A DNA stretch of 21,039 nt from a virus: the IMG/VR virus record IMGVR_UViG_3300020187_000266, positions 1 to 21,039 of that record; one strand, given 5' to 3'. Each line of letters begins with the position of its first letter. Position 1 is the first letter of the stretch. The notes beneath the pieces were generated by a model that did no database searches, was not told where the DNA came from, and was given only the letters and a program-made list of their open reading frames with translations. The position numbers were made by a program, and so were the translations under genes. Positions 1 through 21,039 of the stretch are shown piece after piece.

Positions 1-798
1 CTTATAAAGCCGGTATTAGTTTCATTTCGACCATACATATATTTCCCATCGTGTGAAAAACTAGGATAGTATGTTGCTGGTATAGTTATAGCACCTGTAT
101 AACTGGCTGTACTTAGATCATATGCAGTTGTCATTGTATATTTGTGTAGATTAGTATTTGCTGAATGTCCATGCATATATAAATGCAATCCATCTGAACT
201 GATTTCAAGTGAATAAGGATTGAGATCTTGGGTTCCAACATAAAATTCATTACCTGCCCAATATGCAGTGCTTACGTCAAATGGCGTTCTCATTATGTAT
301 TCTACAATCTTATCTGAACCAGTACCAACTACAAACATTTTCTTACCATCATAACTTAATACCAAATCACGTGGTGCACTGAAATGCGGCGCTACATGAA
401 AGTAACCTGTTTGTGTAACTGAAGTAAGATCATATGGCGTTGCCAATGTAAATTGATAGACATAATCATTGTGGGAAGATATATAAAATTTTGTACCATC
501 TGGTGTAAATTCTATACTATTTGCATTACTGTGCCCGATCTGATAATATAGATCATAATGTCGTACATATGTTGCAGTTGATATATCAAAAGGAGTTGAT
601 AGGGTATGCTCATACAGATAACGACTAGCATGCATAACAAACAATTTAGTACCATCTATTGAGATTCTACTATTGTACATATCACCAAACTGGAATGTTT
701 TTAAATCAAATACAAAATCTGTTTCAGTAAATTCCCATGTGGTTACAGAAGGAGTTGCGACTACTGCCGTAGTAGCCGAGCCATCTACTCTGAATTGG
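1..798 (-). repeat. Direct repeat copy A (798-nt period) in the propeller fibre gene
   Basis: Position 1 begins a sequence (cttataaagccggtattagt) that recurs at 799. The two stretches align without a length change for 798 nt (266 codons), with scattered substitutions only. Copy A probably continues beyond the window, so its true boundary is unknown. The period is an exact multiple of three, so the copies keep the frame and encode the same series of about five blades ending in a DGSATTAV-type linker. Confidence 0.85.
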
Positions 799-3383
799 CT
801 TATAAAGCCGGTATTAGTTTCATTTCGACCATACATATATTTTCCATCATGTGAAAAACTAGGATAGTATAATGCTGGTATAGTTATAGCACCTGTATAA
901 CTGGCTGTACTTAGATCATATGCAGATGTCATTGAATATTTGTGTAGTTTGGTATTTCCTGATGAATGTCCATGCATATATAAATTCAATCCATCTGAAC
1001 TGATTTCAAGTGAATAAGGATTGGAATCTTGGACCCCGACATAAATTTCATTACCTGCCCAATATGCAGTGGTTACATCAAATGAAGTGTTCATCACGTA
1101 TTCTATAATCTTATCTGAACTAGAACCCAATACAAACATTTTCTTACCATCATAACTTAGTACCAAATCACGTGGTGCAGTTAGATGTGACGCTACATGA
1201 AAGTTACCTGTTTGTGTAACTGAAGTAAGATCATATGCGTTTGTCAATGTAAATTGATAGACATAATCATTGTGGGAAGCTATATAAAATTTTGTGCCAT
1301 CTGGTGCAAATTCTATACTATTTGCATTACTGTACCCGATCTGATAATATAGATCATATTGTTGTACATATGTTGCAGTTGATATATCAAAAGGGGTTGA
1401 TAGGGTATGTTCTCGTAAATAACGTTGAGCATGCATAACAAACAATTTAGTACCATCTATTGAGGTTCTACTATTGTACATATCACTAAACTGTAATGTT
1501 TTTAAATCAAATACAAAATCTGTTTCAGTAAATTCCCATGTGGTTGCAGAAGGAGTTACAGCCACTGCTGTAGGAGTTGAGCCATCTGTTTTATATTGAT
1601 GTTGGTAGTTACTTGAAGACCGAAAATATGTATATGTACCGTCTGATGACATTGATAAATTTTCCAAAGGAGCATCAAAGTAATGTATTGTTGGATTGTT
1701 AATATTAGCTGTTGCTACTGCAAAGGGACTAGTTAAAGTATATTCATATAAAGCATCTGTCGTTTTACCACCCATATACAACTTGTTTCCATCATTAGAA
1801 TACTTTATAAAGCAAGGAGTATCATCTTGTATTCCTATATAAGTTCTTGCACCGGTCCAATATGCAGTTGCAATATCATGAGGGGATGGCATCACGAATT
1901 CATATACACGATCTGTCGCCGTGCCAGCAAAGATAAGTTTTTTACCATCTTCTGTAACATTCATCGCAGTTATTGATGATTCCAAATGACCCACATATAA
2001 TTTTACCTTTGAAGAATTATCAACAGTTGTTATATCATATGGTGTTGAAAGTGTCCATTGTGCAATATATCTATATGAAGTATGTGGATTGAACATATAT
2101 ATCTTTGTTCCATCATCTGATATCTGACAAAAATTTACTGACTGATTATCTAGTTGGGTTTTACAATTCCATTGACCGATATAGTTCGCAGTTACAATAT
2201 CAAATGCTGATGATAATTGATATTGATTTACATATGTTTTATTATCTGATACAGTATATAGGTTTAATCCATCACGTGAAAATGACAAATCTGAATTTCC
2301 CACGAATGTTCTTGCATCACTAATCACACTAGTAATATCAAATTTCCAAGTGTCTGAGGATGCAGTTGGTGTTACAATATCATCTGTTGTAGATGTTAGA
2401 CTATATTGAACCATTACTCTATTTTCTGAAGTGTAAAGTTTGGACCCATCAGATGATATAGTAGCATGTTCTGCACCTTTAATCCAGGTTTGTACATTAT
2501 TATATACTGTGGTGGATATATCAAACGGAGTTGATAAATCATATTCATATAACGTATCACTACCTGCATCAAAAATATACATTTTTTCGCCAGTTTTTGA
2601 CATAACTATGGAACGTGCATCTGTTACTTGATTACTAATATCAAATTGTGCATCATCAAAAACTGCGGTTGTAATATCATAAGGAGTTCCCAACGTAAAC
2701 TGGTGAACTTCATCACTATTACCACCAGTTGTAAACATTTTGGTTCCTGCTGCGTTCATTATCATAGAATATATAGTATTCTCATATGTCGAAATTTGTA
2801 AAGTTTTCGATGCATTACTTGCAGTTGAAATATCATATGGTGTACTCATATCAAGAGTTTGTATTGACGTAGATCCACCCAAATAAAGATGTTCGCCGTT
2901 TCCTGATATTGTTATCATTTCAACTTCAACTGCCATTTCTCCATAATAATAATAATTATCAACATAGGCAGCAGTTGAAAGATCAAATGGTATAGACATA
3001 TTGTATTGGAATACACGCTGTGATTGAGCAATATACATTTTAGTACCATCGTCACTCATACTCATATTATTAACATGTGCGGGTGTACCAGCAGAACCAG
3101 ATGATACTAGTAGACCTTTGTCTACCATCAAAGTTTTAAAGTCTTTATTTGTTTTTTCTAACTTTGCAGACCAAGCAGGGGTGACTAAACTAGTATTATC
3201 ACTTAGATGAGAAATATCAGTAGGGATATCTGATAACTTTGCAACTGCAAATCCAGAAACAGTAGTACCATCATGTGCAACCAATCTATTTGTGGTTGTG
3301 TCAAATGTAACTTCTCCCTGTTCACCAGTAAAGGTAGTATGTTCAGATGTTGATCCTCGTCTAAATTGAATTGTATATGCCAT
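1..3383 (-). CDS. Large tail-fibre-like protein: Mtd-type N-terminus plus beta-propeller repeats (3' end outside window)
   Basis: The frame is open from the ATG at 3383 to the left edge (first whole codon at 3), giving at least 1127 residues with no stop. An AGGAG-like site (GGAGA) lies 8 nt upstream of the ATG. Residues 1-45 (MAYTIQFRRGSTSEH, then TGEQGEVTF and AHDGTT) match the N-terminal domain of the major tropism determinant family and closely resemble the start of the neighbouring gene at 4018. From about residue 105 the protein consists of roughly 50-residue repeats. Each has an S-x-DGTK-hydrophobic-Y core, a Q/E-Y-x-L strand and an STPFDISTA-type turn, the pattern of beta-propeller blades. 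The last two visible blocks are 266-residue near-copies holding about five blades each. Known of the family: the Mtd N-terminus anchors receptor-binding proteins to the tail. Inferred: a receptor-binding or adhesin fibre at the tail tip. The true C-terminus, which may carry the receptor-contact domain or a maturation domain, cannot be seen. Confidence 0.8.
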   Translation of the reverse strand, partial: MAYTIQFRRGSTSEHTTFTGEQGEVTFDTTTNRLVAHDGTTVSGFAVAKLSDIPTDISHLSDNTSLVTPAWSAKLEKTNKDFKTLMVDKGLLVSSGSAGTPAHVNNMSMSDDGTKMYIAQSQRVFQYNMSIPFDLSTAAYVDNYYYYGEMAVEVEMITISGNGEHLYLGGSTSIQTLDMSTPYDISTASNASKTLQISTYENTIYSMIMNAAGTKMFTTGGNSDEVHQFTLGTPYDITTAVFDDAQFDISNQVTDARSIVMSKTGEKMYIFDAGSDTLYEYDLSTPFDISTTVYNNVQTWIKGAEHATISSDGSKLYTSENRVMVQYSLTSTTDDIVTPTASSDTWKFDITSVISDARTFVGNSDLSFSRDGLNLYTVSDNKTYVNQYQLSSAFDIVTANYIGQWNCKTQLDNQSVNFCQISDDGTKIYMFNPHTSYRYIAQWTLSTPYDITTVDNSSKVKLYVGHLESSITAMNVTEDGKKLIFAGTATDRVYEFVMPSPHDIATAYWTGARTYIGIQDDTPCFIKYSNDGNKLYMGGKTTDALYEYTLTSPFAVATANINNPTIHYFDAPLENLSMSSDGTYTYFRSSSNYQHQYKTDGSTPTAVAVTPSATTWEFTETDFVFDLKTLQFSDMYNSRTSIDGTKLFVMHAQRYLREHTLSTPFDISTATYVQQYDLYYQIGYSNANSIEFAPDGTKFYIASHNDYVYQFTLTNAYDLTSVTQTGNFHVASHLTAPRDLVLSYDGKKMFVLGSSSDKIIEYVMNTSFDVTTAYWAGNEIYVGVQDSNPYSLEISSDGLNLYMHGHSSGNTKLHKYSMTSAYDLSTASYTGAITIPALYYPSFSHDGKYMYGRNETNTGFISQFRVDGSATTAVVATPSVTTWEFTETDFVFDLKTFQFGDMYNSRISIDGTKLFVMHASRYLYEHTLSTPFDISTATYVRHYDLYYQIGHSNANSIEFTPDGTKFYISSHNDYVYQFTLATPYDLTSVTQTGYFHVAPHFSAPRDLVLSYDGKKMFVVGTGSDKIVEYIMRTPFDVSTAYWAGNEFYVGTQDLNPYSLEISSDGLHLYMHGHSANTNLHKYTMTTAYDLSTASYTGAITIPATYYPSFSHDGKYMYGRNETNTGFI
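799..1596 (-). repeat. Direct repeat copy B (798-nt period) in the propeller fibre gene
   Basis: This is the partner of the copy at 1-798 and is nearly identical in DNA. Differences cluster in a few codons, for example YLYEHT against YLREHT and DGSATTAVVATP against DGSTPTAVAVTP. Upstream in the gene (about 1597-3080) the same blade pattern continues but is clearly more diverged. The duplication that made copies A and B is therefore younger than the repeat family itself. Confidence 0.85.
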
Positions 3384-3547: not shown

Positions 3548-4018
3548 TTACCAAGATGTTTGAACAACGGATCTTACCCAAAGATTTGGCGCTATGCATA
3601 CATACATAAATTCTCCTACTACTCTAACATCACCTTTATTTCCGTCAGAATTTGGCGAAGATGGAGCAGATGTGTTATTGTATACTTCCATACTACGATC
3701 AACATTATCACTACTCATGCTTTTATCACCAATATGAATAGTTCCTGCACTAAGATAAAGGTCTCTGAATTTCTTCTCTGCACTACCAAGATCATACGCT
3801 TCGTTAGTATCTGGTTTAATGTGACCATCCACGTTGCCATTTAAAAAGGTTGAAACGTCACTATCAGTATATGCTGCTTGGCTATGACCACCTGCAGTAG
3901 TCCCGTCATGAACAACCAATGAATTAGTTTCTGTATTTACTGTAACTTCACCGATCTCACCAGTAAAGGTTGAATGTTCAGCCGTTGTACCGCGTCTGAA
4001 TTGTACTGCATATGCCAT
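3548..4018 (-). CDS. Short tail-fibre protein with Mtd-like N-terminus
   Basis: This 156-residue protein starts at an ATG preceded by AGGAGA. Residues 1-45 (MAYAVQFRRGTTAEH, TGEIGEVTV, VVHDGTT) form the N-terminal docking domain of the major tropism determinant family. They are almost the same as the start of the gene at 3383, so the two are paralogues at this end. A middle segment near residues 68-95 (KPDTNEAYDLGS, KFRDLYLSAGTIHIG) is a motif common in tail-fibre and structural proteins of marine T4-like phages. The end (EFMYVCIAPNLWVR) is a short strand-rich motif typical of the same proteins. There is no receptor-binding C-type lectin domain, so this is not a full Mtd. It is probably a small fibre or adaptor protein of the tail tip. 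It lies between two propeller genes, with its own candidate promoter upstream and a terminator downstream. Confidence 0.8.
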   Translation of the reverse strand: MAYAVQFRRGTTAEHSTFTGEIGEVTVNTETNSLVVHDGTTAGGHSQAAYTDSDVSTFLNGNVDGHIKPDTNEAYDLGSAEKKFRDLYLSAGTIHIGDKSMSSDNVDRSMEVYNNTSAPSSPNSDGNKGDVRVVGEFMYVCIAPNLWVRSVVQTSW

Positions 4019-4128: not shown

Positions 4129-7100
4129 TCACAATGAAGTGAAAATGTAAGATTTACCTGAATTACTACCAAGAGCGTCATCTTCATATCGTGCACCGAC
4201 AATAAGTTTTTCATTTGAAACTGCAACTGAGTAACCGAATTGATCACTATCTCCACTGCCATCTGCATTTATGTTATCAATAGTTCTAGTATGATTACCT
4301 GTTAATGCATCAAATATGAATACTTTTCCACTATCAGTAACACCGGTTTCATCTTCTAGATAAGAACCCACAATGATTTGGTTATCTGAAATGTCTATTG
4401 CATTAGCAAATGCATCTCCTGTAGAATTATTTGGATTATCTATTGTATGCAATAGAGACAATGTGTGTGTGTCATACACATATGCTCTACCTTTACCAGC
4501 ATTTGCATTTTGTGCACCAACTACAAATTTATCACCATCAATTGCAACACTTAGACCGAAATACTCCTGGCCTACGCCGGCTGGGTTGTAGATTGGTTGA
4601 ATAGTGTTACTTGGTATGTGCATTATATATATTGCACTGGAGTAACTATCGGTTCTAACATATGCAGCACTCCATATTGCATAATCACCAGAAACATCAA
4701 CCTCACGCCCCATATTAAATCTCTGTGTTCTGGATGGATTGTCATATTTCTTGATATGATTAGTTGGGTTAGTACCTGTCATGTCATATATATAAACTGC
4801 GCCACCATTTGCATCACTAGCATTGTAATTTACACCAGATTGTTCTTCACCAGGAGCACCTACAATTGCGTATTTCCCGTCAATCGCAACAGAATTTCCA
4901 AAATTATCATATTGTTCATTTGGACTCGGATGTGGTATATGATGCAGCAACGAATAATCACTTCTATTAAATACATAAACAGAACCAGACCCATACATGC
5001 CAGTTGTTGATTTATCGTTATTTGCACCAACTATAATATAATCTTCAGATATATCTACTGAATACCCAAATTGATCACTTGATTTTCCATTGGCTAATCC
5101 ATCTGGATTAATAAGTGTATGCAGTAATGCACCAGTTGATGAATTTACTACGTATACAACACCAGAATTGCTTTGACCACTAGCATCTTCTGCATATGCA
5201 CCAATTACTGCTGTATCGCCATGAACTGCTACTGCGGAACCGAAGTAATCATTTGCTGTACTATCTGTTTCATTGAAATTGTCAATCGTCAATGTAGAAG
5301 ATATAGAAGTCCAATCGTAATCTGCAAACCTTTCAACACTACCACTACCACTAGTAACTGGTATACCTGCATTGCCATATGAGTCTGTAAATGCAATACT
5401 ATAAGTTACGTTACCTAGAGCATCGTTGGTATCTACTATATATGATGCAGTCCATTTGTTAGTATATCGTTCGGTATTAACATAAGATGATGATGTATTG
5501 GTTACAGTTGCACCTCCAGAATAGAATGTAACTACTGGTGTACCAATTATTTTATCAGCAATAAATGTAACTGTAACTTCATTTCCTGTTACCGCTCTAG
5601 TAGAGTCTTGATTACTTGATGCTAAATTAACATCTGATAATGTTGGTAATGTAGTAGAATCATCTGCGATTGAATCAAATATATATGCTTTTCCTGAGTT
5701 ATTACCAGATGTTTGAGATAATGCTTCCGCGTCATCTTCATATCTTGCACCAACAATGATCCTTTCATATGATATTGCAACTGAGTAACCGAATTCGTCA
5801 GAGGTTTGGTCTGGGCCAAATGCATTTGGATTATACAATGTCTTCAATTCTGAACCAGTTAATGCATCAAATATATATGCCACGCCCGCAGATTCTTGAT
5901 AATCTGTATTCCAAGGACCTGAATTATATACGTCTTCTAGATAAGAACCCACAATAACTCTATTATCTGAAATGTCTATTGCATTAGCAAATGCATCTCC
6001 TGTAGAATTATTTGGATTATCTATTGTATGCAATAGAGCTAATGTGTGTGTGTCATACACATATGCTCTACCTTTACCAGCATTTGCATTTTGTGCACCA
6101 ACTACAAATTTATCACCATCAATTGCAATACTTAGACCGAAATACTCCTGGCCTATGCCCGCTGGGTTGTAGATTGCTTTAATATTGTTACTTGGTATGT
6201 GCATTATATATATTGCACTAGAGTAACTATCGGTTCTAACATATGGAGCACTCCATATTGCATAATCACCAGAAACATCAACCTCACGCCCCATTTGATA
6301 TCTCTGTGTTCTGGATGGATTGTCATATTTCTTGATATGATTAGTTGGGTTAGTACCTGTCATGTCATATATATAAACTGCGCCACCATTTGCATCACTA
6401 GCATTGTAATTCACACCAGATTGTTCTTCATTTGGTGCACCTACAATTGCGTATTTCCCGTCAATCGCAACAGAATGTCCAAAATTATCATATTGTTCAT
6501 TTGGACTCGGATGTGGTATATGATGTAGTAATCCATAAGTAGCCCTATTAAATACATAAACAGAACCAGCCCCATACATGCCAGTTGTTGATTTATCGTT
6601 ATTTGCACCAACTATTATATAATCTTCAGATATATCTACTGAATACCCAAAATTATCACTTGATTTTCCATTGGCTAATCCATCTGGATTAATAAGTGTA
6701 TGCAGTAATGCACCAGTCACTGAATTCACTACGTATACAACACCAGAATTGCTTTGACCACTAGCATCTTCTGCATATGCACCAATTACTGCTGTATCGC
6801 CATGAACTGCTACTGCGTAACCGAAGTAATCATTTGCTGTACTACCTGTTTCATTGAAATTGTCAATCGTTAACATTGAAGGATGTGCTGACCAATTTGC
6901 TATGCTTTGTATATCAACACTACCACTACCACTAGTAACTGGTATACCTGCATTGCCATATGAGTCTGTAAATGAGATACTATAAGTTACATTACCTTTA
7001 GTATCATTAGTATCTACTATATATGTTGCAGTCCATTTGTTAGTATATAGTTCGGTATTAACATAAGATGGTGTATTGGTTACAATTGCACCACCAGAAT

Positions 7101-10100
7101 AGAATGTAACTATTGGTGACGATATTAATTTATCTGAAATTAAAGTTATTATAACTTCATTTCCTGCTACTGCTCTAGTAGAATCTGTATTGTTTGATGC
7201 TAAATTAACATCTGATAATGTTGGTAATGTAGTAGAATCATCTGCGATTGAATCAAATATATATGCTTTTCCTGAGTTATTACCAGATGTTTGAGATAAT
7301 GCTTCAGCATCATCTTCGTATCTTGCACCAGCAATGATCCTTTCATATGATATTGCAACTGAGTAACCGAATTGGTCATCGGTTTGGTCTGGGCCAAATG
7401 CATTTGGATTATATAATGTCCGCATTTGCAAACCAGTTAATGCATCAAATATATATGCCACGCCCGCAGATTCTTGATAATCTGCATTCCAAGGACCTGA
7501 ATTATATACGTCTTCTAGATAAGAACCCACAACAACTCTATTATCTGAAATGGCTATTGCATTAGCAAATGCATCTCCTGTAGAATTATTTGGATTATCT
7601 ATTGTATGCAATAGAGCTAATGTGTGCGTGTCATACACATATGCTCTACCTTTACCAGAATTTGCATTTTGTGCACCAACTACAAATTTATCACCATCAA
7701 TTGCAACACTTAGACCGAAATACTCCTGGCCTATGCCGCCTGGGTTGTAGATTGCTTTAATATTGTTACTTGGTATGTGCATTATATATATTGCACTGGA
7801 GTAACTATCGGATCTAGTATAAGGGGCGCTCCATATTGCATAATCACCAGAAACATCAACATCCTGCCCCATGCGATATCGATGTGTTCTAGATGGATTG
7901 TCGTATCTCTTGATATAATTAGTTGGGTTAGTACCTGTCATGTCATATATATAAACTACGCCACCATTATTGTTATTACCATCAGTGTTGCTCACATTAT
8001 ATTGTTCTTCATTTGGCGCACCTACAATTGCGTATTTCCCGTCAATCGCAACAGAATGTCCAAAATTATCATAAGTTTCATTTGGACTCGGATGTGGTAT
8101 ATGATGTAGTAATGAATAATCACTTCTATTAAATACATAAACAGAACCAGCCCCATACATGCCAGTTGTTGATCTATCGCCACTTGCACCAACTATAATA
8201 TAATCTTCAGATATATCTACTGAATACCCAAAATTATCACTTGATTTTCCATTGGCTAATCCATCTGGATTAATAAGTGTGTACAGCAATTCACCAGTCA
8301 ATGAATTTACTACGTATACAACACCAGAATCGCTTTGACCACTAGCATCTTCTGCAAATGCACCAATTACTGCTGTATCGCCATGAACTGCTACTGCGTA
8401 ACCGAAGTAATCATTAGCACTTGCACCAACCGAATTTGGATTGTCAATCGTTAACATTGAAGGAGTTGCTGACCAATTTGCTATGTTTTGTATATCAACA
8501 CTACCACTACCACTAGTAACTGGTATACCTGCATTGCCATATGAGTCTGTAAATGCAATACTATAAGTTACATTACCTTTAGTATCATTAGTATCTACTA
8601 TATATCTTACATTCCATATATTACTATTGCGATCAATTGTATTCTGATATATGTCATATTGGGCAGCAGTTGATACATTAGTAACAGAATTTCCGCCAGA
8701 ATAGAATGTAACTACTGGTGTGCCAATTATTTTATCAGCAATAAATGTAACTATGACTTCATTTCCTGCTACCGCTCTAGTAGAATCTGTATTATTTGAT
8801 AGTAACTTAACGTCTGATAATGTTGGTAACGTAGCAGAATCATCTGCGATTGAATCAAATATATATGCCTTTCCTGAGTTATTACCAGATGTTTGAGATA
8901 ATGCGTCAGCATCATCTTCATATCTTGCACCAGCAATGATCCTTTCATATGATATTGCAACTGAGTAACCGAATTGGTCATCGGTTTGGTCTGGGCCAAA
9001 TGCATTTGGATTATACAATGTCTGTAATTCTGAACCAGTTAATGCATCAAATATATATGCAACGCCCGCAGATACTTGATAATCTGTATTCCAAGGACCT
9101 GAATTATATACGTCTTCTAGATAAGAACCCACAATAACTCTATTATCTGAAATATCTACTGCACTAGCAAATGCATCTTCTGTAGAATTATTTGGATTAT
9201 CTATTGTATGCAATAGAGCTAATGTGTTTGTGTCATATATATATGCTCTACCTTTACCAGAATCTGCATTTTGTGCACCAACTACAAATTTATCACCATC
9301 AATTGCAAGACTTGTACCGAAATACTCCTGGCCTATGCCGCCTGGGTTGTAGATTGCTTTAATATTGTTACTTGGTATGTGCATTATATATATTGCAGGG
9401 GCGAAATTGGTGGTTCTAACATATGGAGCACTCCATATTGCATAATCACCAGAAACATCAACATCACGCCCCATTTGATATCTCTGTGTTCTAGATGGAT
9501 TGTCGTATCTCTTGATATAATTAGTTGGGTTAGTACCTGTCATGTCATATATATAAACTACGCCACCATTATTGTTATTACCATCAGTGTTGCTCACATT
9601 ATATTGTTCTTCATTTGGCGCACCTACAATTGCGTATTTCCCGTCAATCGCAACAGAATGTCCAAAATTATCATAAGTTTCATTTGGACTCGGATGTGGT
9701 ATATGATGTAGTAATGAATAATCACTTCTATTAAATACATAAACAGAACCAGCCCCATACATGCCAGTTGTTGATCTATCGCCACTTGCACCAACTATAA
9801 TATAATCTTCAGATATATCTACTGAATACCCAAAATTATCACTTGATTTTCCATTGGCTAATCCATCTGGATTAATAAGTGTGTACAGCAATTCACCAGT
9901 CAATGAATTTACTACGTATACAACACCAGAATCGCTTTGACCACTAGCATCTTCTGCAAATGCACCAATTACTGCTGTATCGCCATGAACTGCTACTGCG
10001 TAACCGAAGTAATCATTAGCACTTGCACCAACCGAATTTGGATTGTCAATCGTTAACATTGATGCAACACTAGACCAATTTGCTATGTTTTGTATATCAA

Positions 10101-13100
10101 CACTACCACTACCACTAGTAACTGGTATACCTGCATTGCCATATGAGTCTGTAAATGCAATACTATAAGTTACGTTACCTAGAGCATCGTTGGTATCTAC
10201 TATATATGTTGCAGTCCATTTGTTAGTATATAGTTCGGTATTAACATAAGATGGCGTATTGTTTACAATTGAACCACCAGAATAGAATGTAACTATTGGT
10301 GACGATATTATTTTATCAGCAATAAATGTAACTATGACTTCATTTCCTGCTACCGCTCTAGTAGAATCTGTATTATTTGATGCTAAATTAACATCTGATA
10401 ATGTTGGTAACGTAGCAGAATCATCTGCGATTGAATCAAATATATATGCCTTTCCTGAGTTATTACCAGATGTTTGAGATAATGCTTCCGCGTCATCTTC
10501 ATATCTTGCACCCACAATAGCATAGTCGCCACTTAGCGAAACTGAGAAACCGAATTGGTCATCGGTTTGGTCTGGGCCAAATGCATTTGGATTATATAAT
10601 GTCCGCATTTGCAAACCAGTTAATGCATCAAATATATATGCAACGCCCGCAGATTGTTGATAATCTGCATTCCAAGGACCTGAATTATATACGTCTTCTA
10701 GATAAGAACCCAAAATAACTCTATTATCTGAAATATCTACTGCATTAGCAAATGCATCTTCTGTAGAATTATTTGGATTATCTATTGTATGCAATCGAGC
10801 CAATGTGTGTGTGTCATACACATATGCTCTACCTTTACCAGAATTTGCATTTTGTGCACCAACTACAAATTTATCACCATCAATTGCAAGACTTGTACCG
10901 AAATAATCCTGGCCACTGCCGCCTGGGTTGAAGATTGGTTTAATAGTGTTACTTGGTATGTGCATTATATATATTGCAGGGGCGAAATCGGTGGTTCTAA
11001 CATATGGAGCACTCCATATTGCATAATCACCAGAAACATCAACATCACGCCCCATTTGATATCTCTGTGTTCTAGATGGATTGTCATATTTCTTGATATA
11101 ATTAGTTGGGTTAGTACCTGTCATGTCATATATATAAACTGCGCCACCATTATTGTTATAACCATCAGTGTTGCTCACATTATATTGTTCTTCATTTGGT
11201 GCACCTACAATTGCGTATTTCCCGTCAATCGCAACAGCATGTCCAAAATTATCATAATTTTCATTTGGACTCGGATGTGGTATATGATGTAGCAACGAAT
11301 AATCACTTCTATCAAATACATAAACAGAACCAGCCCCAGAATATGAAACTTGGGCATGGTCACCACTTGCGCCAACTATGATATAATCTTCAGATATATC
11401 CACTGAATTCCCAAAATTATCATTTGCTTTTCCATTGCCTATTCCATCTGGATTAATAAGTGTATGCAGTAATGCACCAGTCAATGAATTTACTACGTAT
11501 ACAACACCAGAATTGCTTTGATTACTATAATCTTCTGCATATGCACCAATTACTGCTGTATCGCCATGAACTGCTACTGCGTAACCGAAGTAATCATTTG
11601 CTGTACTACCTGTTTCATTGAAATTGTCAATCGTTAACATTGAAGGAGTTGCTGACCAGTTCGGTATCGGCGAAAGTGTTACATTTCCGGTGATATTATT
11701 TGATGCAGTATCTCCCGCGATCCCATCAACATCCGTAAATGTAATACTGTATGTTATATTTCCAGGAGTATCATCTGTATGTACTACGAAACTTGCTTTC
11801 CATGTATCATTAAACGCATTGAGACTTTCGTAAGTTACTGTATTAGTAATGTCATACTCAACTTCATTATTGACAGTTTTAAATGTTACTGTGGGCTGTG
11901 GTATATTTTTTGATGCTTTCATGGTAACACTTACTATATTACCTTCTACTGCATTAGTAGGGTCTTGATTGCTTGAAGAAAGTATTATACTATCTAATGT
12001 TGGGCTTGCACCTACTAATCTTGGCACAGAATCAAATATGTATGCTTTTCCTGATCTACTACCAGATGTTTGGGATAATGCATCTTCATCATCTTCTTCC
12101 CACGCACCACCAATTGCATAATCACCACTTATTGCTACTGAGTAACCGAACTTGTCGCTTTCATGTACACCAAATGCATTTGGATTTGAAATAGTCTGCA
12201 TGTGTGAAAAATCTGTTCTTGAGAATATATATATTTCGCCTGAATTTTCATGTGTATCTACATTCCAAATACCTGCTTGAGATTCTGATATATACGGAGA
12301 ACCAACTATGATATAATCTTCTGAGATATCAACTGAAGACCCAAATCGGTTGCTCGTAAGACTACCCGTGCGAGGATTGTTCAATGTCCCTAGTAATGCG
12401 CCAGTTTCAGTGTTATAAACATATGCGATACCCTCATCGGTAGTATTATTAACTGTATCATCATAATTATAAGCGGTAACTACTGCATGATTGCCCATAA
12501 TTGCAACTTTGGCGCCAAAATAAGAATTCGCTGTCCAACTGGCAGTTGGTGGGGTGATCAAAGATGTTGTATTAGTTACAATGTTATGTATATAGAACCC
12601 GGCTCTGCCAGAGGTACCCCTAGCATAAGGGGCGCCCCATACTGCATAATCACCAGAAACATCAACATCAAGCCCCATATTATATCTAGCAGTTCTGGAT
12701 GGATTGTCATATTTCTTGATATAATTAGTTGGGTTAGTACCTGTCATGTCATATATATAAACTGCGCCACCATTTGCATCACTATCATTGGCTCCCACAT
12801 TATATTGTTCTTCATTTGGTGCACCTACAATTGCGTATTTCCCGTCAATCGCAACAGCATGTCCAAAACGATCATAATGTTGATTTGGACTCGGATGTGG
12901 TATATTATGTAGCAACGAATAATCACTTCTATCAAATACATAAACAGAACCAGCCCCAGAATATGAAACTTGGGCATGGTCACCACTTGCGCCAACTATG
13001 ATATAATCTTCAGATATATCCACTGAATTCCCAAAATTATCATTTGCTTTTCCATTGCCTATTCCATCTGGATTAATAAGTGTATCTAGCAATTCACCAG

Positions 13101-13671
13101 TTGATATATTTACTACGTATACAACACCAGAATTGCTTTGATTACTATAATCTTCTGCATATGCACCAATTACTGCTGTATCTCCGTGAACTGCTAATGC
13201 GTAACCGAAGTAATCATTAGCACTTGTACCAACCGAATTTGGATTGTCAATCGTTAACATTGTAGGAGTTGCTGACCAATTTTGTACACCATCTACACCT
13301 TGACTTGCCGGAATTATCACAGGTCCACGTTTGAATCTACCACGGTTAGAATAAAACATTGTTTGGTCAATTGCTACTGTATTTTCTGATACAATGCCGT
13401 TATCCCATTCACCACGTAAAGGGTTTCCAATTATACCAAAATCAATAGAGTCGTCTGAACTAGGAGATCCAAATTTTTCTTTTGGTTTATTGGGAATTTT
13501 TTTTCTATGACCTGCTCCAATTGCACCGGACAGTTGGTGAGCCTCTGTAATAGAACCACGGTCTGCTATTTCTAAAAAATCTAATAGTTTTCTAACTTTA
13601 ATTTTACTCAGCGTAGTGTCTGGTGAAAATTGCCCTTTAATATCCAACCCATTGATCCGTATCTTTGACAT
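4129..13671 (-). CDS. Giant 3180-residue FG-GAP beta-propeller protein, probable tail fibre or adhesin
   Basis: The ATG at 13671 follows AGGAG by 8 nt and a TATAAATA by 30 nt. Residues 1-130 form a unique N-terminus of unknown fold. Six blocks follow, starting near residues 131, 671, 1198, 1732, 2259 and 2786. Each block holds seven repeats of the FG-GAP type (for example FGYAVAVHGDTAVIGA, FGYSVDISEDYIIVGA, MGREVDVSGDYAIWSAPY), a number that predicts one closed seven-bladed propeller like that of integrin alpha chains. Blocks 1-5 end in a domain of about 100 residues (ending near YSIAFTDSYGNAG) that looks Ig-like. Block 6 is only the propeller and closes the protein (YIFTSL). No signal peptide, membrane segment or enzyme motif is visible. 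D/N-rich loops (NTDGNNNNGG) recall metal sites but are not canonical. The context of tail genes upstream and Mtd-N fibres downstream suggests a virion fibre for host contact. A large cell-surface adhesin made late in infection is less likely. Confidence 0.85.
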   Translation of the reverse strand: MSKIRINGLDIKGQFSPDTTLSKIKVRKLLDFLEIADRGSITEAHQLSGAIGAGHRKKIPNKPKEKFGSPSSDDSIDFGIIGNPLRGEWDNGIVSENTVAIDQTMFYSNRGRFKRGPVIIPASQGVDGVQNWSATPTMLTIDNPNSVGTSANDYFGYALAVHGDTAVIGAYAEDYSNQSNSGVVYVVNISTGELLDTLINPDGIGNGKANDNFGNSVDISEDYIIVGASGDHAQVSYSGAGSVYVFDRSDYSLLHNIPHPSPNQHYDRFGHAVAIDGKYAIVGAPNEEQYNVGANDSDANGGAVYIYDMTGTNPTNYIKKYDNPSRTARYNMGLDVDVSGDYAVWGAPYARGTSGRAGFYIHNIVTNTTSLITPPTASWTANSYFGAKVAIMGNHAVVTAYNYDDTVNNTTDEGIAYVYNTETGALLGTLNNPRTGSLTSNRFGSSVDISEDYIIVGSPYISESQAGIWNVDTHENSGEIYIFSRTDFSHMQTISNPNAFGVHESDKFGYSVAISGDYAIGGAWEEDDEDALSQTSGSRSGKAYIFDSVPRLVGASPTLDSIILSSSNQDPTNAVEGNIVSVTMKASKNIPQPTVTFKTVNNEVEYDITNTVTYESLNAFNDTWKASFVVHTDDTPGNITYSITFTDVDGIAGDTASNNITGNVTLSPIPNWSATPSMLTIDNFNETGSTANDYFGYAVAVHGDTAVIGAYAEDYSNQSNSGVVYVVNSLTGALLHTLINPDGIGNGKANDNFGNSVDISEDYIIVGASGDHAQVSYSGAGSVYVFDRSDYSLLHHIPHPSPNENYDNFGHAVAIDGKYAIVGAPNEEQYNVSNTDGYNNNGGAVYIYDMTGTNPTNYIKKYDNPSRTQRYQMGRDVDVSGDYAIWSAPYVRTTDFAPAIYIMHIPSNTIKPIFNPGGSGQDYFGTSLAIDGDKFVVGAQNANSGKGRAYVYDTHTLARLHTIDNPNNSTEDAFANAVDISDNRVILGSYLEDVYNSGPWNADYQQSAGVAYIFDALTGLQMRTLYNPNAFGPDQTDDQFGFSVSLSGDYAIVGARYEDDAEALSQTSGNNSGKAYIFDSIADDSATLPTLSDVNLASNNTDSTRAVAGNEVIVTFIADKIISSPIVTFYSGGSIVNNTPSYVNTELYTNKWTATYIVDTNDALGNVTYSIAFTDSYGNAGIPVTSGSGSVDIQNIANWSSVASMLTIDNPNSVGASANDYFGYAVAVHGDTAVIGAFAEDASGQSDSGVVYVVNSLTGELLYTLINPDGLANGKSSDNFGYSVDISEDYIIVGASGDRSTTGMYGAGSVYVFNRSDYSLLHHIPHPSPNETYDNFGHSVAIDGKYAIVGAPNEEQYNVSNTDGNNNNGGVVYIYDMTGTNPTNYIKRYDNPSRTQRYQMGRDVDVSGDYAIWSAPYVRTTNFAPAIYIMHIPSNNIKAIYNPGGIGQEYFGTSLAIDGDKFVVGAQNADSGKGRAYIYDTNTLALLHTIDNPNNSTEDAFASAVDISDNRVIVGSYLEDVYNSGPWNTDYQVSAGVAYIFDALTGSELQTLYNPNAFGPDQTDDQFGYSVAISYERIIAGARYEDDADALSQTSGNNSGKAYIFDSIADDSATLPTLSDVKLLSNNTDSTRAVAGNEVIVTFIADKIIGTPVVTFYSGGNSVTNVSTAAQYDIYQNTIDRNSNIWNVRYIVDTNDTKGNVTYSIAFTDSYGNAGIPVTSGSGSVDIQNIANWSATPSMLTIDNPNSVGASANDYFGYAVAVHGDTAVIGAFAEDASGQSDSGVVYVVNSLTGELLYTLINPDGLANGKSSDNFGYSVDISEDYIIVGASGDRSTTGMYGAGSVYVFNRSDYSLLHHIPHPSPNETYDNFGHSVAIDGKYAIVGAPNEEQYNVSNTDGNNNNGGVVYIYDMTGTNPTNYIKRYDNPSRTHRYRMGQDVDVSGDYAIWSAPYTRSDSYSSAIYIMHIPSNNIKAIYNPGGIGQEYFGLSVAIDGDKFVVGAQNANSGKGRAYVYDTHTLALLHTIDNPNNSTGDAFANAIAISDNRVVVGSYLEDVYNSGPWNADYQESAGVAYIFDALTGLQMRTLYNPNAFGPDQTDDQFGYSVAISYERIIAGARYEDDAEALSQTSGNNSGKAYIFDSIADDSTTLPTLSDVNLASNNTDSTRAVAGNEVIITLISDKLISSPIVTFYSGGAIVTNTPSYVNTELYTNKWTATYIVDTNDTKGNVTYSISFTDSYGNAGIPVTSGSGSVDIQSIANWSAHPSMLTIDNFNETGSTANDYFGYAVAVHGDTAVIGAYAEDASGQSNSGVVYVVNSVTGALLHTLINPDGLANGKSSDNFGYSVDISEDYIIVGANNDKSTTGMYGAGSVYVFNRATYGLLHHIPHPSPNEQYDNFGHSVAIDGKYAIVGAPNEEQSGVNYNASDANGGAVYIYDMTGTNPTNHIKKYDNPSRTQRYQMGREVDVSGDYAIWSAPYVRTDSYSSAIYIMHIPSNNIKAIYNPAGIGQEYFGLSIAIDGDKFVVGAQNANAGKGRAYVYDTHTLALLHTIDNPNNSTGDAFANAIDISDNRVIVGSYLEDVYNSGPWNTDYQESAGVAYIFDALTGSELKTLYNPNAFGPDQTSDEFGYSVAISYERIIVGARYEDDAEALSQTSGNNSGKAYIFDSIADDSTTLPTLSDVNLASSNQDSTRAVTGNEVTVTFIADKIIGTPVVTFYSGGATVTNTSSSYVNTERYTNKWTASYIVDTNDALGNVTYSIAFTDSYGNAGIPVTSGSGSVERFADYDWTSISSTLTIDNFNETDSTANDYFGSAVAVHGDTAVIGAYAEDASGQSNSGVVYVVNSSTGALLHTLINPDGLANGKSSDQFGYSVDISEDYIIVGANNDKSTTGMYGSGSVYVFNRSDYSLLHHIPHPSPNEQYDNFGNSVAIDGKYAIVGAPGEEQSGVNYNASDANGGAVYIYDMTGTNPTNHIKKYDNPSRTQRFNMGREVDVSGDYAIWSAAYVRTDSYSSAIYIMHIPSNTIQPIYNPAGVGQEYFGLSVAIDGDKFVVGAQNANAGKGRAYVYDTHTLSLLHTIDNPNNSTGDAFANAIDISDNQIIVGSYLEDETGVTDSGKVFIFDALTGNHTRTIDNINADGSGDSDQFGYSVAVSNEKLIVGARYEDDALGSNSGKSYIFTSL
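7883..8460 (-). repeat. 578-nt identical segment, copy in repeat unit 4
   Basis: Compared by eye base for base with 9485-10062 (offset 1602), no mismatch is seen over 578 nt, while both flanks differ at once (the low-coordinate flank gcgatatcga against gatatctc; the high-coordinate flank aggagttg against tgcaacac). It covers blades 1-3 and the start of blade 4 of the propeller. Identity at synonymous sites marks a very recent copy or conversion. Confidence 0.85.
9485..10062 (-). repeat. 578-nt identical segment, copy in repeat unit 3
   Basis: This is the partner of 7883-8460. Beyond the identical segment, units 3 and 4 diverge in blade 4: unit 3 has the TTNFAPAIY variant and unit 4 the SDSYSSAIY variant. 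The identity therefore does not extend over whole units. Confidence 0.85.
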
Positions 13672-13708: not shown

Positions 13709-13738
13709 ATAATATAGCAATTAATATATATTAATATA

Positions 13739-13765
13739 AAAAAGGTACCATAATGGTACCTTTTT
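13739..13765 (-). terminator. Bidirectional intrinsic terminator ending the tail/packaging operon
   Basis: AAAAAGGTACC and GGTACCTTTTT pair perfectly around a 5-nt ATAAT loop, so a T run follows the stem on either strand. It is about 33 nt past the stop at 13798 and separates the seven-gene operon from the giant fibre gene. Confidence 0.85.
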
Positions 13766-13797
13766 ACTTTTACAACTAAATTTATATTTTACTATTA

Positions 13798-14376
13798 TTA
13801 TCTGTAGTATCTTGGTGCCTTTGGTCTTTCTGTGCCTGGAGTACTTTTAAATTTTGCAGGTCCAGTCTTATCTGTGAAGGGGTAAGGCCCAACATAAATA
13901 CCTTTCGGATCATTGCCACCTTTTGTATCTTTCGATGTATTTTTTCTTGGTTTAGTATTTTTGACTGGCCATTTTATAATTTCAGATTCTTCTAAGTCAA
14001 AGTCTGCTATTAAAGCTTCATAAATTTCGTCTTCATTTACTGAATACTCAAGTGGGTTATCACCTGCACTTGGCTTTAGTGTTTTCTTTTGGCGTGAAAT
14101 GGAGTTAGCAGTCTTTTTAGAAAAATCGTCTAAGTCAAGTTCGTCATTAGCAGGTGTTGCTTGATATTCTGCTGCTGCGTCCAGTCTATGTGGTTCATCA
14201 TCGCATCCGCAACTATCATCACATCCACAGCCACTGTCCATTGGTGTAATTTCAACAGTCTTACCTGCAAGTGTTAACATTCTCATTAATTCTTCTGGAT
14301 GCTCAGTACTCACGTTTGTTGTAGTAACGGCTTTTCCGTTATTATCAGTCATAGTTAGGTTATAATGTTTGCTCAT
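13798..14376 (-). CDS. 192-aa protein with CxCxxxCxC cluster, function unknown
   Basis: The ATG at 14376 overlaps the previous stop as ATGA, with GGAG a few bases upstream, so the two genes are probably translationally coupled. Residues 1-45 look like a small folded segment (TEHPEELMRMLTLAGK helix flanked by strands). Then SGCGCDDSCGCDDE places four cysteines at about residues 50, 52, 56 and 58 between acidic residues, suggesting a metal site. The remainder is low-complexity and charged, with a Pro/Gly/Tyr-rich end (GIYVGPYPFTD, PRYYR). No family is recognised with confidence. Its place as the last gene of a tail/packaging operon suggests a virion or head-assembly protein, but this is inference from position alone. 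Confidence 0.75.
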   Translation of the reverse strand: MSKHYNLTMTDNNGKAVTTTNVSTEHPEELMRMLTLAGKTVEITPMDSGCGCDDSCGCDDEPHRLDAAAEYQATPANDELDLDDFSKKTANSISRQKKTLKPSAGDNPLEYSVNEDEIYEALIADFDLEESEIIKWPVKNTKPRKNTSKDTKGGNDPKGIYVGPYPFTDKTGPAKFKSTPGTERPKAPRYYR

Positions 14377-14948
14377 TCTTCATCTCCTGATATAACAGAT
14401 TCGCTTGTTTTTTCATCGGTGTCCATTTGTTCTGATACGTCATCCTGTTTTGGTTTTATACTCAATTCATTTTCTACTGTAACTTCATCTCTTTTACTAA
14501 GAGATTTTAAGAAATTATCAATAAATCCTCTACCATAATTTTCGCCATTATCAGATTCATCGCCATATTCTGGAGTATCTAGCAATGCTTTTTTATCACC
14601 ATCTTCTTCAACTTCTTCGATTGGTTCCCATCCTTCGGGATGAACAGCGATATGTGACATATTCATTTCTAATAGATCAGATAATTGAACTCTTAGGATA
14701 TCAGCGGAAACAGGGTATCCAGTTTTAATTTCTATCTTAGAAACTTTTGTGTTAGCTACATCATCAGAAAAAAACAATGGATTTTTGGTAATAGGTGTAG
14801 TTGCCGTACGCGATATTGAAATCAAATCATACTTACCTAGAAAACGTTCAATACGATTTATATCTTCTTCATTCAATTCTGCTGCGAATCGCAAGGTTAA
14901 ACAACATTCCCTAGTTGACTCTGTTAAATATTCTCTAAAACTTTTCAT
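14373..14948 (-). CDS. 191-aa protein with T4-type capsid-targeting N-terminus, possible internal head protein
   Basis: The reading frame could open at a TTG at 14960, but that codon lies against and partly inside the ribosome site (GGAGAG, 14953-14958). The ATG at 14948 stands at the right spacing and is chosen. This start gives MKSFREYLTES, which fits the capsid-targeting sequence of T4 internal proteins, followed by a leucine-x-glutamate (LTE, residues 8-10) where the T4 prohead protease family cuts. Residues about 14-100 alternate strand and helix in the order of a ferredoxin-like fold (ECCLTLRF; NEEDINRIERFLGKY; LISISRT; VSKIEIKTGY; ADILRVQLSDLL; SHIAVHP). The last 80 residues are acidic and probably disordered. 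Inferred: packaged into the prohead and processed there. The biochemical role is unknown. The packaging neighbours support a head role. Confidence 0.75.
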   Translation of the reverse strand: MKSFREYLTESTRECCLTLRFAAELNEEDINRIERFLGKYDLISISRTATTPITKNPLFFSDDVANTKVSKIEIKTGYPVSADILRVQLSDLLEMNMSHIAVHPEGWEPIEEVEEDGDKKALLDTPEYGDESDNGENYGRGFIDNFLKSLSKRDEVTVENELSIKPKQDDVSEQMDTDEKTSESVISGDEE

Positions 14949-14952
14949 TGGT

Positions 14953-14958
14953 CTCTCC
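14953..14958 (-). promoter_or_regulatory. Ribosome binding site GGAGAG that fixes the start at 14948
   Basis: The GGAG core ends 6 nt before the ATG at 14948. It overlaps the alternative in-frame TTG (14958-14960), which could not use it, so the longer 195-residue reading is rejected. Confidence 0.75.
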
Positions 14959-14969
14959 AATTTATATTC

Positions 14970-15494: not shown

Positions 15495-15503
15495 TATATT
15501 ATC

Positions 15504-17883: not shown

Positions 17884-17896
17884 TTTATATTACCTA

Positions 17897-18493
17897 TTAT
17901 CCAGATAAACTTGAATCATTAGTGAAGCCAGGGGATGGCATCAAATCGGTATCAGTTAAAACAGCGTTATCATATTGAAGTGTCAAATTGATTGTAACTG
18001 CATCTGACACTGAGTAATCACTTTGTGAATAATCTGTGTTTGTTAGGAAACAACCTTCTAGTTGCCACTGCTCAATTGGATTACCATCATTGCCATTTAG
18101 TGTTTCAATAAGTGTCGAAAATTTGTAGTTTGTTCCTGCAAGTGGACCAGTTTGATTTCTGTGATCTAGTTGTGATTGTACTTGACGGCCAACTAATTTA
18201 GTTAGTGAGTTAGCAACATCATCACGTAGTGTGATTGTGATTGGTTCCCAAGTGTGCTTTCCCATCATGTACATACGAGAGTTGTATGAATCAATTGGAA
18301 TAGACTCGTGTGAGACTTTGGGACGGGTTACATTCATAACTTGTCTTGTGAAGTCTGTTGTATTCTCTGATAGGCCACCAAAACCTGCAACTTGTACTCT
18401 AAAACGATAGTTTAATTTAGGCTGTAGAATACCTGTACCTGTTGCAGCGCCGCTATCTGTTGGAACACCGAAATTTTGTAATGTTCTTGCCAT
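17897..18493 (-). CDS. 19: Tail tube protein, gp19-like
   Basis: The 198-residue product starts at an ATG with AGGAGA about 10 nt upstream. After a short flexible N-terminus, residues 25-45 (KLNYRFRVQVAGFGG) open the tube-protein barrel. They are followed by VTRPKVSHESIPIDSYNSRMYM and WEPITITLRDDV, then WQLEGCFLTNTDYS and VTINLTLQYDNAVL, the core strand order of contractile-tail tube proteins. It is somewhat longer than T4 gp19 (163). It lies right after the sheath gene, the usual gp18-gp19 order. Its product forms the inner tube through which DNA passes. A terminator upstream and a late promoter at 18530 make it the first gene of a seven-gene operon, suited to high expression. Confidence 0.9.
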   Translation of the reverse strand: MARTLQNFGVPTDSGAATGTGILQPKLNYRFRVQVAGFGGLSENTTDFTRQVMNVTRPKVSHESIPIDSYNSRMYMMGKHTWEPITITLRDDVANSLTKLVGRQVQSQLDHRNQTGPLAGTNYKFSTLIETLNGNDGNPIEQWQLEGCFLTNTDYSQSDYSVSDAVTINLTLQYDNAVLTDTDLMPSPGFTNDSSLSG

Positions 18494-18529
18494 AATAATA
18501 TCTCCTGATATAGTTTTGCGTTATACAAG

Positions 18530-18537
18530 TATTTATC
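18530..18537 (-). promoter_or_regulatory. Candidate late promoter GATAAATA for the tail tube operon
   Basis: The minus strand reads GATAAATA 37 nt before the ATG at 18493 and just past the sheath terminator. A weaker variant, ACTAAATA, lies next to it at 18540-18547. The non-coding position and spacing support a late promoter driving gp19 and the genes after it. Confidence 0.6.
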
Positions 18538-18568
18538 AGTATTTAGTAAAATTAAAGTTGTAGTTAAT

Positions 18569-18593
18569 AAAAAACCCGACATTACTGCCGGGT
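18569..18593 (-). terminator. Intrinsic terminator after the tail sheath gene
   Basis: The minus strand forms an 8-bp stem (ACCCGGCA with TGTCGGGT, one G-T wobble) with a GTAA tetraloop, followed by six T. It lies about 30 nt past the sheath stop at 18623 and is the only strongly GC-rich word in the gap. Confidence 0.85.
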
Positions 18594-18622
18594 CTCTTAA
18601 AGTTATTGTTTTTAATACTATA

Positions 18623-21039
18623 TTATAATTCTTCACCAGTATTACGAATACGTAGAGGAATATAGATAAATTCAACTGATTTGACTGGCTGAATTGCAAT
18701 ATCTACCCATAATTCATTTCTATCGATACGTGCCGGTGTATTGTTTGATTCATCACAAACTACTAGGAAGTCATATAGACCTCGATTAGTAACTAGACCG
18801 CCACAGAAACGCTCAACCGCATCTCGCATGTTGTCACGTGTGATTTTATCATTTTGTTCAAACAAGAAGCCTCTTGATAGTTGATCTAAACTATAACGCA
18901 TGTGATTAACTAGTCTTGCTACGTTGATACGATCAAGTGCAGATGCGAATGATTGCTGCGTCTTTTGGCCATATACAACTAAGCCTGTGCCCGGCATATC
19001 TGCGATTGGATTCATACGGTTTGCATACATTACATCACGCTGGCCTTCTGTAAGACGAACCCGAACAAATTCATTTTCATCATTTACATATCCAACTTGT
19101 GATGCATTAGTAACAACACCACGTGTTAAACCTGCTGGAGCAAACCAAGGGAAAGATACTTGATCTGAGAAAGCTATAGTACGCAATGCAATTGCTGATG
19201 CTGGCATAACAACTTCATTGCCAGATAGATCAGTGGTTAAACCATGTGGATAATAAACACCTGCGTATGCATCTGTTACTGTATTATTATCTGCCCAGGC
19301 TTTAATATCTGTTGCAGTACCTTTTAATGTCATTGGAGTATCACCGATAACAAATGCTATTTCTTTTTTGTCTTTGTTTAGACCAACCATTTCATCTGTT
19401 AGTTCTGGATAACCTGGTGCGGCAATCAAATTGAAGTATACTGCTTCTGCACGAATACCTTCGTTTGCTACTAGTGCTGCTGACATTGCTTCAGAAACCA
19501 TATGACGCTGTGCCGATGAACCAAATTTGCCTGAACCATCTAGATTTACGCCTGATACCCATTCCCATTTTCCATCTACATATTGTTTGACATTGTATGT
19601 TGTATAATCCATGTTAACCATTAAGATATTTTCTGGAAGTAGTTCTGCATTTGGTGTATTTTCATGTACGTCACGCGCACTTTCATTGCCCAGTGTGTCA
19701 TACGGTGCGTCCGCTGAGTAGTGACCGAAAATCATACCATTGGATGACGACTGATCAGCATTATCTAGTTTTACCCATTCTAACCCACTATAGCGCCACA
19801 TTACTGGATAATTTGCTGCATCTGTATCTACCCAAATATCACCAGCAATCAGCGCAGATGATCCATCTTTACGTGCGGTCGGACGTGATGAACGTAATTG
19901 TAGTTCATTAGCATATATACCATCATTGTCTTCTGACCAAGCATATTTTACCCATTGCTGTTCGCCACCAACATATTCAACACGTAGTAATTCCATTTTT
20001 AAATCAGCATTGTACCATAGTGTATCCGGAGCGATATCGCCTTTTGGCGCTAGTGTACTTGATTCATATGAAAGGTCTTCCCATACTGTTGCTATAAATG
20101 TACTCGCTGAAGTGAATCCCATATCGTTTGCACCTGCAGAGAATGACAATGTTAGCATTTTACCATCAGTTTTGATGAGTCTAATTTTATTTGTGCCAAC
20201 TTTTTCAATCTTTACATTATTATTATTCAAGTCAGAGTTATTCTGCATTGATGTAATCACAGTATCGATTGATGCGGTTGTGAAAGTAAAGGCCGTTACA
20301 TTGCCATCCACTGAAACAGTAAATGATGAAGTTATGGATGTAGTATCTGCTATAGAAATTTCACTTTGAATTGAAGTTGTAGTTCCACCAGTATGTCTAC
20401 GTAATTCTACCACACCTTTTGTTTCATCGCGTCTAGCGTATACGTCACCAAGAGTTATCAATGAATTATTCATTGCAATATCATCGTTAGCGTATGTTGA
20501 AACTTGTAATGCTTGGAATGCACCCGATACTGAATTATAATTTGCAAGTTTGATATCTAATCCGCCGCCTTGTTTTGTTAAGCGAACATAAACATCACCT
20601 GTGATTGCACTTGCTGGTGCAAAGTTTGCGAATGAGAAATTTGGCGAACCAATATCACCTAGTAGAACCCAACTAGTTGAAATTTTCTTCCAATAGGTCA
20701 TTTTTATTGTTGACGTAACAACTGCAAAATCACCTGCAGAACCAAATGTATTCACCGGAGCTGCATAACCAGATGAATTCATCGGTTCAACATTGCCTGT
20801 ACCTGGTTCATCCATTAATACTGTTGGTGTGATTGCAACCCAAGATGTGCCATTATATTCAAATAGTCCATAATCTGAAGCAGTTGCTTCATGCCAATAT
20901 GTGCCATTTACTAAAACACCAACTGGCTCTTCGGTGCTTGCTTCTAATTCTGCTAGATCAATATCTGCACGAATAATATAAGCATTATTTGAAACGCCTA
21001 GATATTGATATGCTGCTAGTAGTCCATATTCACTTGTTT
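18623..21039 (-). CDS. 18: Contractile tail sheath protein, gp18-like (5' end outside window)
   Basis: The frame is open to the right edge (first full codon ends at 21037). The internal ATG at 20815 is therefore not the start; YQYLGVSNNAYIIRADIDL and further coding precede it. The visible 804 residues already exceed T4 gp18 (659). The conserved C-terminal sheath domain is plain in the last 200 residues: LVNHMRYSLDQLSRGFLFEQ, ITRDNMRDAVERFCGGLV, LYDFLVVCDESNNTPARID, ELWVDIAIQPVKSVEFIYI. These strands and helices lock neighbouring sheath subunits and bind the tube. The middle carries extra material, including a segment rich in Ser/Thr strands (about residues 215-320 of the visible part) and several W-x-(n)-Y-x-G-x-x-W-V motifs, probably outward-facing domains. 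Function: forms the contracting outer tail layer. Confidence 0.92.
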   Translation of the reverse strand, partial: TSEYGLLAAYQYLGVSNNAYIIRADIDLAELEASTEEPVGVLVNGTYWHEATASDYGLFEYNGTSWVAITPTVLMDEPGTGNVEPMNSSGYAAPVNTFGSAGDFAVVTSTIKMTYWKKISTSWVLLGDIGSPNFSFANFAPASAITGDVYVRLTKQGGGLDIKLANYNSVSGAFQALQVSTYANDDIAMNNSLITLGDVYARRDETKGVVELRRHTGGTTTSIQSEISIADTTSITSSFTVSVDGNVTAFTFTTASIDTVITSMQNNSDLNNNNVKIEKVGTNKIRLIKTDGKMLTLSFSAGANDMGFTSASTFIATVWEDLSYESSTLAPKGDIAPDTLWYNADLKMELLRVEYVGGEQQWVKYAWSEDNDGIYANELQLRSSRPTARKDGSSALIAGDIWVDTDAANYPVMWRYSGLEWVKLDNADQSSSNGMIFGHYSADAPYDTLGNESARDVHENTPNAELLPENILMVNMDYTTYNVKQYVDGKWEWVSGVNLDGSGKFGSSAQRHMVSEAMSAALVANEGIRAEAVYFNLIAAPGYPELTDEMVGLNKDKKEIAFVIGDTPMTLKGTATDIKAWADNNTVTDAYAGVYYPHGLTTDLSGNEVVMPASAIALRTIAFSDQVSFPWFAPAGLTRGVVTNASQVGYVNDENEFVRVRLTEGQRDVMYANRMNPIADMPGTGLVVYGQKTQQSFASALDRINVARLVNHMRYSLDQLSRGFLFEQNDKITRDNMRDAVERFCGGLVTNRGLYDFLVVCDESNNTPARIDRNELWVDIAIQPVKSVEFIYIPLRIRNTGEEL

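Follow-up and report, generated by a model that had tools for sequence, protein, structure and literature searches.

The window analysed here is a complete 21-kb IMG/VR record (21,039 nt) and represents a fragment of a tailed-phage genome. On the minus strand it encodes a tail sheath, a tail tube, a gp4-like head-closure nuclease, several small structural-type genes and a gene for a 3180-aa repeat protein, which is followed by a 156-aa Mtd_N protein and by a long Mtd_N protein that runs off the window end (Table 1). The tube and sheath genes place the locus in the structural region of a myovirus. In database comparisons the sheath is most closely related to those of jumbo phages, e.g. SCTP-2, PA5oct and Phosso, and the tail tube is 81% identical to that encoded on a 342-kb contig (L077). 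A terminator-like hairpin, AAAAAAGGTACC-ATAAT-GGTACCTTTTT (about 13735-13765), lies in the gap upstream of the gene for the 3180-aa protein.

Table 1. Features of the window, and segments of the unit alignment with the grouping of units favoured in each by AU tests (25/34 denotes U2 with U5 and U3 with U4, and so on).
Feature	Position	Strand	Remarks
Second probable fibre gene, Mtd_N + PD40/WD40-like propeller array	3..3383	-	PF18454 E 1.1e-14; open at contig end
156-aa protein with Mtd_N, from a neighbouring fibre gene	3548..4018	-	PF18454 E 6.6e-15; phrog_9648 tail
3180-aa repeat protein, probable tail fibre/adhesin	4129..13671	-	single ORF without stops; 33 FG-GAP_2 (PF14312) stretches
U6	4132..5316	-	C-terminal propeller without Ig-like domain; blades 6-7 divergent
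U5	5317..6897	-	propeller + Ig-like domain
U4	6898..8478	-	propeller + Ig-like domain; unit used for structure model
U3	8479..10080	-	propeller + divergent Ig-like variant; 578-nt exact match to U4 across blades 1-3
U2	10081..11661	-	seven-bladed propeller + Ig-like domain
U1	11662..13281	-	blades 1-3 homogenised with U2; blades 4-7 + Ig-like domain of divergent type
N-terminal 130-aa domain, likely virion anchor	13282..13671	-	88% identical in L009/L017
Border of swappable fibre cassette	13797		window/L010 nucleotide identity of 96.1% ends
Tail tube + tail sheath genes	17897..20815	-	phrog_4542 E 3e-55; phrog_10581 E 1e-174
AU segment	columns 1-72		25/34 favoured, delta lnL 66; rivals p<=0.03
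AU segment	columns 201-250		23/45 favoured, delta lnL 18.9; rivals p<=0.03
AU segments	columns 346-372 and 456-500		24/35 favoured, delta lnL 16.6 and 13.6; rivals p<=0.03
AU segment	columns 501-550		25/34 favoured, delta lnL 15.0; rivals p<=0.03

The match of the 3180-aa protein to the FG-GAP_2 profile lies far above the curated cut-off (E 4.3e-280, 904.5 bits vs a cut-off of 23). The protein consists of a 130-aa N-terminal domain followed by six seven-bladed FG-GAP propellers (U1-U6), five of which are followed by an Ig-like domain. PHROG and NCBIfam searches returned no family that names it a fibre, NCBIfam returning nothing at all. Weak Pfam matches to Rhomboid, DUF5749 and ETM were set aside, none of these domains passing on its own, as was an antibody light chain, the sole match in a PDB sequence search (E 0.007). 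In distant relatives (L037, L038 and L040) other large proteins have a related N-terminal domain, in some cases together with FG-GAP-like repeats; identity to the N-termini of the same-locus proteins in L037/L038 is 32-34%, and two of these proteins bear such repeats. L037 has two consecutive large genes of this kind (14329-18591 and 18690-20120), and the product of the second aligns to the FG-GAP protein at 25% identity.

A structure model of U4, built from a 33-row alignment (mean pLDDT 81.8), predicts seven four-stranded blades in a ring closed by the N-terminal strand and then a beta-rich Ig-like domain, which corresponds to the "linker" of the preliminary description of this DNA. Among solved structures, integrin alpha headpieces come closest (Z 36-38, propeller rmsd 2.8); one of them is 3v4v_C with Z 38.1 and rmsd 2.8 over 355 aligned residues. 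The DxDxDG calcium motifs of integrins are absent from all 3180 aa, so that the likeness is one of fold and the protein is not a member of the integrins.

Overall DNA identity among U2-U5 is 89-93%, with pairwise values along the unit ranging from about 61 to 100%. The preliminary description had proposed that variants do not follow one tree, and this is borne out by AU tests, in which segments of the unit conflict significantly and each of the three possible topologies of U2-U5 is backed somewhere (Table 1), the Ig-like domain included. Among 68 informative nucleotide sites in U2-U5, 36 support the 25/34 grouping, 18 support 23/45 and 14 support 24/35. These sites fall into only 9 contiguous runs where 42 are expected, the minimum seen in 20,000 shuffles being 27 (p<5e-5). 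The PHI test is likewise significant (U2-U5, p=0.0002), and at least 8 recombination intervals (Rm) are present in U2-U5 and at least 12 in blades 1-3 of U1-U6. Synonymous sites alone, at 15 too few to give much power, are non-significant for U2-U5 (runs p=0.12, PHI p=0.32).

The motifs on which the shuffling proposal had been built are present in the units named, with the one correction that U4 carries LISSPIV and not IISSPIV. In the U4 model the NPNSV site forms the closing strand and the D-A loop ahead of blade 1, while STTGMYG and FAPAIY/YSSAIY correspond to the B-C loops of blades 2 and 4, respectively. Where a variant is shared, its codons are shared as well: the NPNSVG block reads CCA AAT TCG GTT GGT in U1, U3 and U4 alike, HAQVSYS has the same codons in U1 and U2, and TNDALGNV is ACC AAC GAT GCT CTA GGT AAC GTA in both U2 and U5. 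This identity extends to multi-nucleotide and synonymous choices, indicating that the blocks were inherited and did not arise by convergence. Ordinary duplication without any exchange, with loop motifs shared through convergent selection on the binding face, would accord with the strong selection on loops described below and with the non-significant synonymous-only tests. It does not account for the codon-identical blocks, for conflicting topologies within the Ig-like domain, or for a related contig, L017, that changes unit type for the remainder of a unit, and we consider this explanation largely refuted and highly improbable.

Further evidence for exchange comes from synonymous differences, which crowd around variable codons (16.5% of the invariant codons next to them vs about 3% at a distance of at least 5 codons; permutation p=0.0004), as predicted if short divergent tracts were pasted into a homogenised background. 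The exchanged tracts span about 10-190 codons and their borders fall inside blades. Thus, while shuffling between units is confirmed by the runs, PHI and AU results, the blade is not its unit, and "segmental exchange" is a better name than "blade shuffling". When U1 is compared with U2 in 40-codon windows, blades 1-3 are 84-100% identical in nucleotides and blades 4-7 plus the Ig-like domain 47-78%, with U1 of a different type past column 220. Two other stretches stand out by divergence. The Ig-like domain of U3 (8479-8800) is about 61-68% identical in nucleotides to that of U2 and has a 7-residue insertion; it was possibly imported from another phage. The C-terminal half of U6 (blades 6-7, 4132-4500) is far more diverged (54-69%) than its first half, which we read as indicating that homogenisation does not reach the end of the array.

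When viral contigs were scanned with U4, with the unit alignment and with the N-terminal and Ig-like domains, L009 and L017 were the only close homologous contigs. They are siblings, 98-99% identical in nucleotides in sheath, gp4 and N-terminal domain. The first unit of L009 matches window U1 along its full length. The first unit of L017 tracks that of L009 through blade 3 (90%); beyond this point identity is down to 48-66%, since the remainder of the L017 unit is of the U2-U6 type, its Ig-like domain being up to 95% identical to that of window U2/U5 despite a backbone-gene dS of about 0.5-0.8. This crossover sits in a framework block in which about 26 nt are conserved across all units. A comparison of the FG-GAP gene with its orthologs for concerted evolution was weak (8 vs 3 sites, p=0.11), since the second unit is available for 41 codons only.

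Both the mosaic and the L017 junction could be chimeras created when short reads from near-identical repeats or co-occurring strains were joined. All contigs are metagenomic assemblies, in which repeats invite such chimeras, L009 and L017 both terminate inside the array, and the exact match of 578 nt between U3 and U4 exceeds Illumina read length and may be a collapsed repeat. However, the 9.5 kb ORF is intact, and at most breakpoints units match exactly over no more than about 13-60 nt, which makes chimeras unlikely to account for the whole pattern; at the L017 junction the two types have only about 26 nt in common. Loop-confined variation moreover recurs in independent contigs, and a second fibre array is equally homogenised in the window and in another contig (L010, see below). 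We therefore regard an assembly artefact as a rather improbable source of the mosaic, while noting that assembly error is the main caveat, above all for the U3/U4 identity.

The preliminary description had further proposed to map variable positions on a predicted propeller and see whether they fall on one exposed face. In blades 1-3 of L009 and L017, 29 of 96 positions in the loops of the predicted top face (B-C and D-A) differ, compared with 3 of 103 elsewhere (p=5.8e-8); these 3 comprise 2 of the 26 positions in A-B and C-D turns and a single one of the 77 strand positions. Expressed as variable fractions, this corresponds to 0.30 for the top, 0.08 for the bottom and 0.01 for strands (p=0.010). 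Among U2-U6 the fractions are 0.41, 0.21 and 0.23, respectively (p=0.005). Variable residues thus concentrate in B-C and D-A loops and are not confined to buried positions. The bias is weaker in U2-U5 alone (p=0.09), and certain of the shuffled blocks belong to the bottom face (the C-D turn of blade 6) or to the Ig-like domain.

Selection was assessed in one ortholog pair, L009/L017. The top loops have a dN of 0.226 and a dS of 0.084 (dN/dS 2.7, dN>dS p=0.019), whereas outside them dN is 0.029 and dS 0.109 (dN/dS 0.27), and the N:S contrast between top and rest is significant (p=0.001). Hypervariable surface loops could also be the work of a diversity-generating retroelement (DGR) or another targeted mutator, and the neighbouring genes do carry Mtd_N, the N-terminal domain of Mtd, the classic DGR target. 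Yet no reverse transcriptase (RVT_1) is present in the window or in 11 related contigs of up to 342 kb (the genome being incomplete), variable sites are not enriched in adenine (0.183 vs 0.169 for other bases, p=0.51), and the variation spans many loops and moves in blocks. A targeted mutator is scarcely credible on these data, in keeping with the earlier proposal of diversification without a retroelement.

At the level of whole genes the locus is also variable. Between 21039 and 13797 of the window, nucleotide identity with L010 is 96.1%; homology stops at 13797, where the gene preceding the repeat gene ends. Beyond this border, at which the hairpin described above lies, L010 encodes another Mtd_N protein together with a propeller array that has diverged, its fibre genes having been replaced wholesale. 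The FG-GAP gene is absent at the same place in L012, L013, L015 and L020. The second array (3-3383, minus strand, in the window; 16008-20594 in L010) consists of units whose nucleotide identity to one another is 91% in the window and 86-94% in L010, compared with about 64-76% between the two phages. That units are closer within than between phages points to a second, unrelated family of propellers evolving in concert at this locus, and we regard the nucleotide comparisons as strong evidence that the fibre locus evolves in this manner.

A location downstream of sheath and tube, beside Mtd_N genes and at a site of replacement in L010 is that of a tail-fibre or receptor-binding gene. It is conceivable that the protein instead decorates the virion or cell surface and sticks to particles or polysaccharides without setting host range, in which case the shuffling would be mainly neutral concerted evolution. 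Many bacterial proteins that are not receptors have FG-GAP propellers, and here the Ig-like spacers are shuffled too. But dN exceeds dS only in the top loops of the sibling phages, and the gene occupies a swappable place among genes of tail-fibre type, which makes mere decoration unlikely.

Taken together, we believe that the 3180-aa protein is probably an adhesin of a jumbo myophage, most likely a tail fibre, in which recombination between copies of a propeller array and selection on the top loops shift host-surface specificities without a retroelement. Its location on the virion and its binding to a host are suggested by locus and fold. We envisage a bead-on-string adhesin of a marine jumbo myophage, with an N-terminal virion anchor and six integrin-like propellers with Ig-like spacers between them. 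The framework DNA, being nearly identical, would let the units recombine among themselves and with those of co-infecting relatives. Homologous recombination, by enzymes that the window does not encode, would be the simplest source of exchange, with L017 arising by unequal crossover and the short tracts by gene conversion or double crossover. In this manner tracts bearing loop variants would be reshuffled and the array would stay open to remodelling of the kind seen in L017. In the intervals between exchanges, the B-C and D-A loops of the top face, the one used by integrins for ligands, would be altered by diversifying selection, and the likely outcome would be changing specificities upon a constant scaffold. 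The observation of the preliminary description was thus right and its interpretation largely so, with the role as a host-binding adhesin argued from context.

Diversification of phage fibres is usually put down to gene swapping, point mutation or DGRs. The locus described here adds a further route, in which a repeat array acts as its own donor pool and variation lies mostly on the face that corresponds to the ligand face of integrins. It is possible, though rather less likely than not, that jumbo phages of this group hold an internal library of complete propeller domains in their fibre genes and that homologous recombination between copies is a dedicated, retroelement-free diversifier of host recognition, drawing in two or more unrelated families of propellers at the locus (FG-GAP and PD40/WD40-like). 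Each of the ingredients is known; their combination in phages was not found in the literature searched, which included no paper pairing "jumbo phage" with "FG-GAP".

Phage-borne FG-GAP propellers also occur in cyanophage S-TIM5, phage C48C1 and Phosso, at 25-31% identity, and the S-TIM5 copy is annotated as a virion structural protein. In metaviromic islands of marine phages host-recognition genes vary amid near-identical genomes, as at this locus (PMC3909814). Those islands reflect replacement at the level of genes, whereas here exchange also takes place inside one gene, between its own repeats. The gp38 adhesins of T-even phages, which together with the fungal HET propellers considered below come nearest as precedents, are receptor-binding proteins with a conserved framework and variable surface loops, in which hypervariable segments lie between glycine-rich motifs (PMC12892980). 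Unlike the array, gp38 has a single PGII-sandwich tip domain, and its exchange occurs across phages and not among tandem copies of one gene. Tetart et al. reportedly described recombination between conserved gp38 motifs in 1998.

The integrin alpha headpiece, like each complete unit of the array, is a seven-bladed FG-GAP propeller followed by an Ig-like domain, and loops of its upper surface recognise ligand and make up part of the ligand pocket (PMC5076510). By analogy, the variable top-face loops of the phage protein may be the ones that bind. The phage protein differs from integrin alpha in having neither DxDxDG motifs nor a beta partner, in sharing only about 15-19% identity with it, and in its tandem arrangement in a phage.

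The closest parallel in evolutionary mode is found in the HET-D/HET-E (HNWD) WD40 proteins of Podospora anserina (PMC1805685, PMC2873952). Here too a propeller recognition domain is built of near-identical repeats, exchange occurs between repeats, and no retroelement is involved. Positive selection in HET-E acts on sites in the top-face d-a loop and b-c turn (PMC1805685), the two classes of loop in which selection is seen in our one ortholog pair. The two systems differ in that the HET proteins are products of eukaryotic NLR allorecognition genes, for which RIP mutagenesis has been proposed, and in that their repeat is a single WD40 blade within a propeller, while that of the array is a whole FG-GAP propeller with its Ig-like domain. 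A Pfam scan found neither WD40 nor NACHT in the 3180-aa protein, so that the likeness is one of evolutionary mode only. The closeness of this parallel with fungal non-self recognition genes suggests that arrayed propellers may be a general answer to the demands of fast-evolving recognition.
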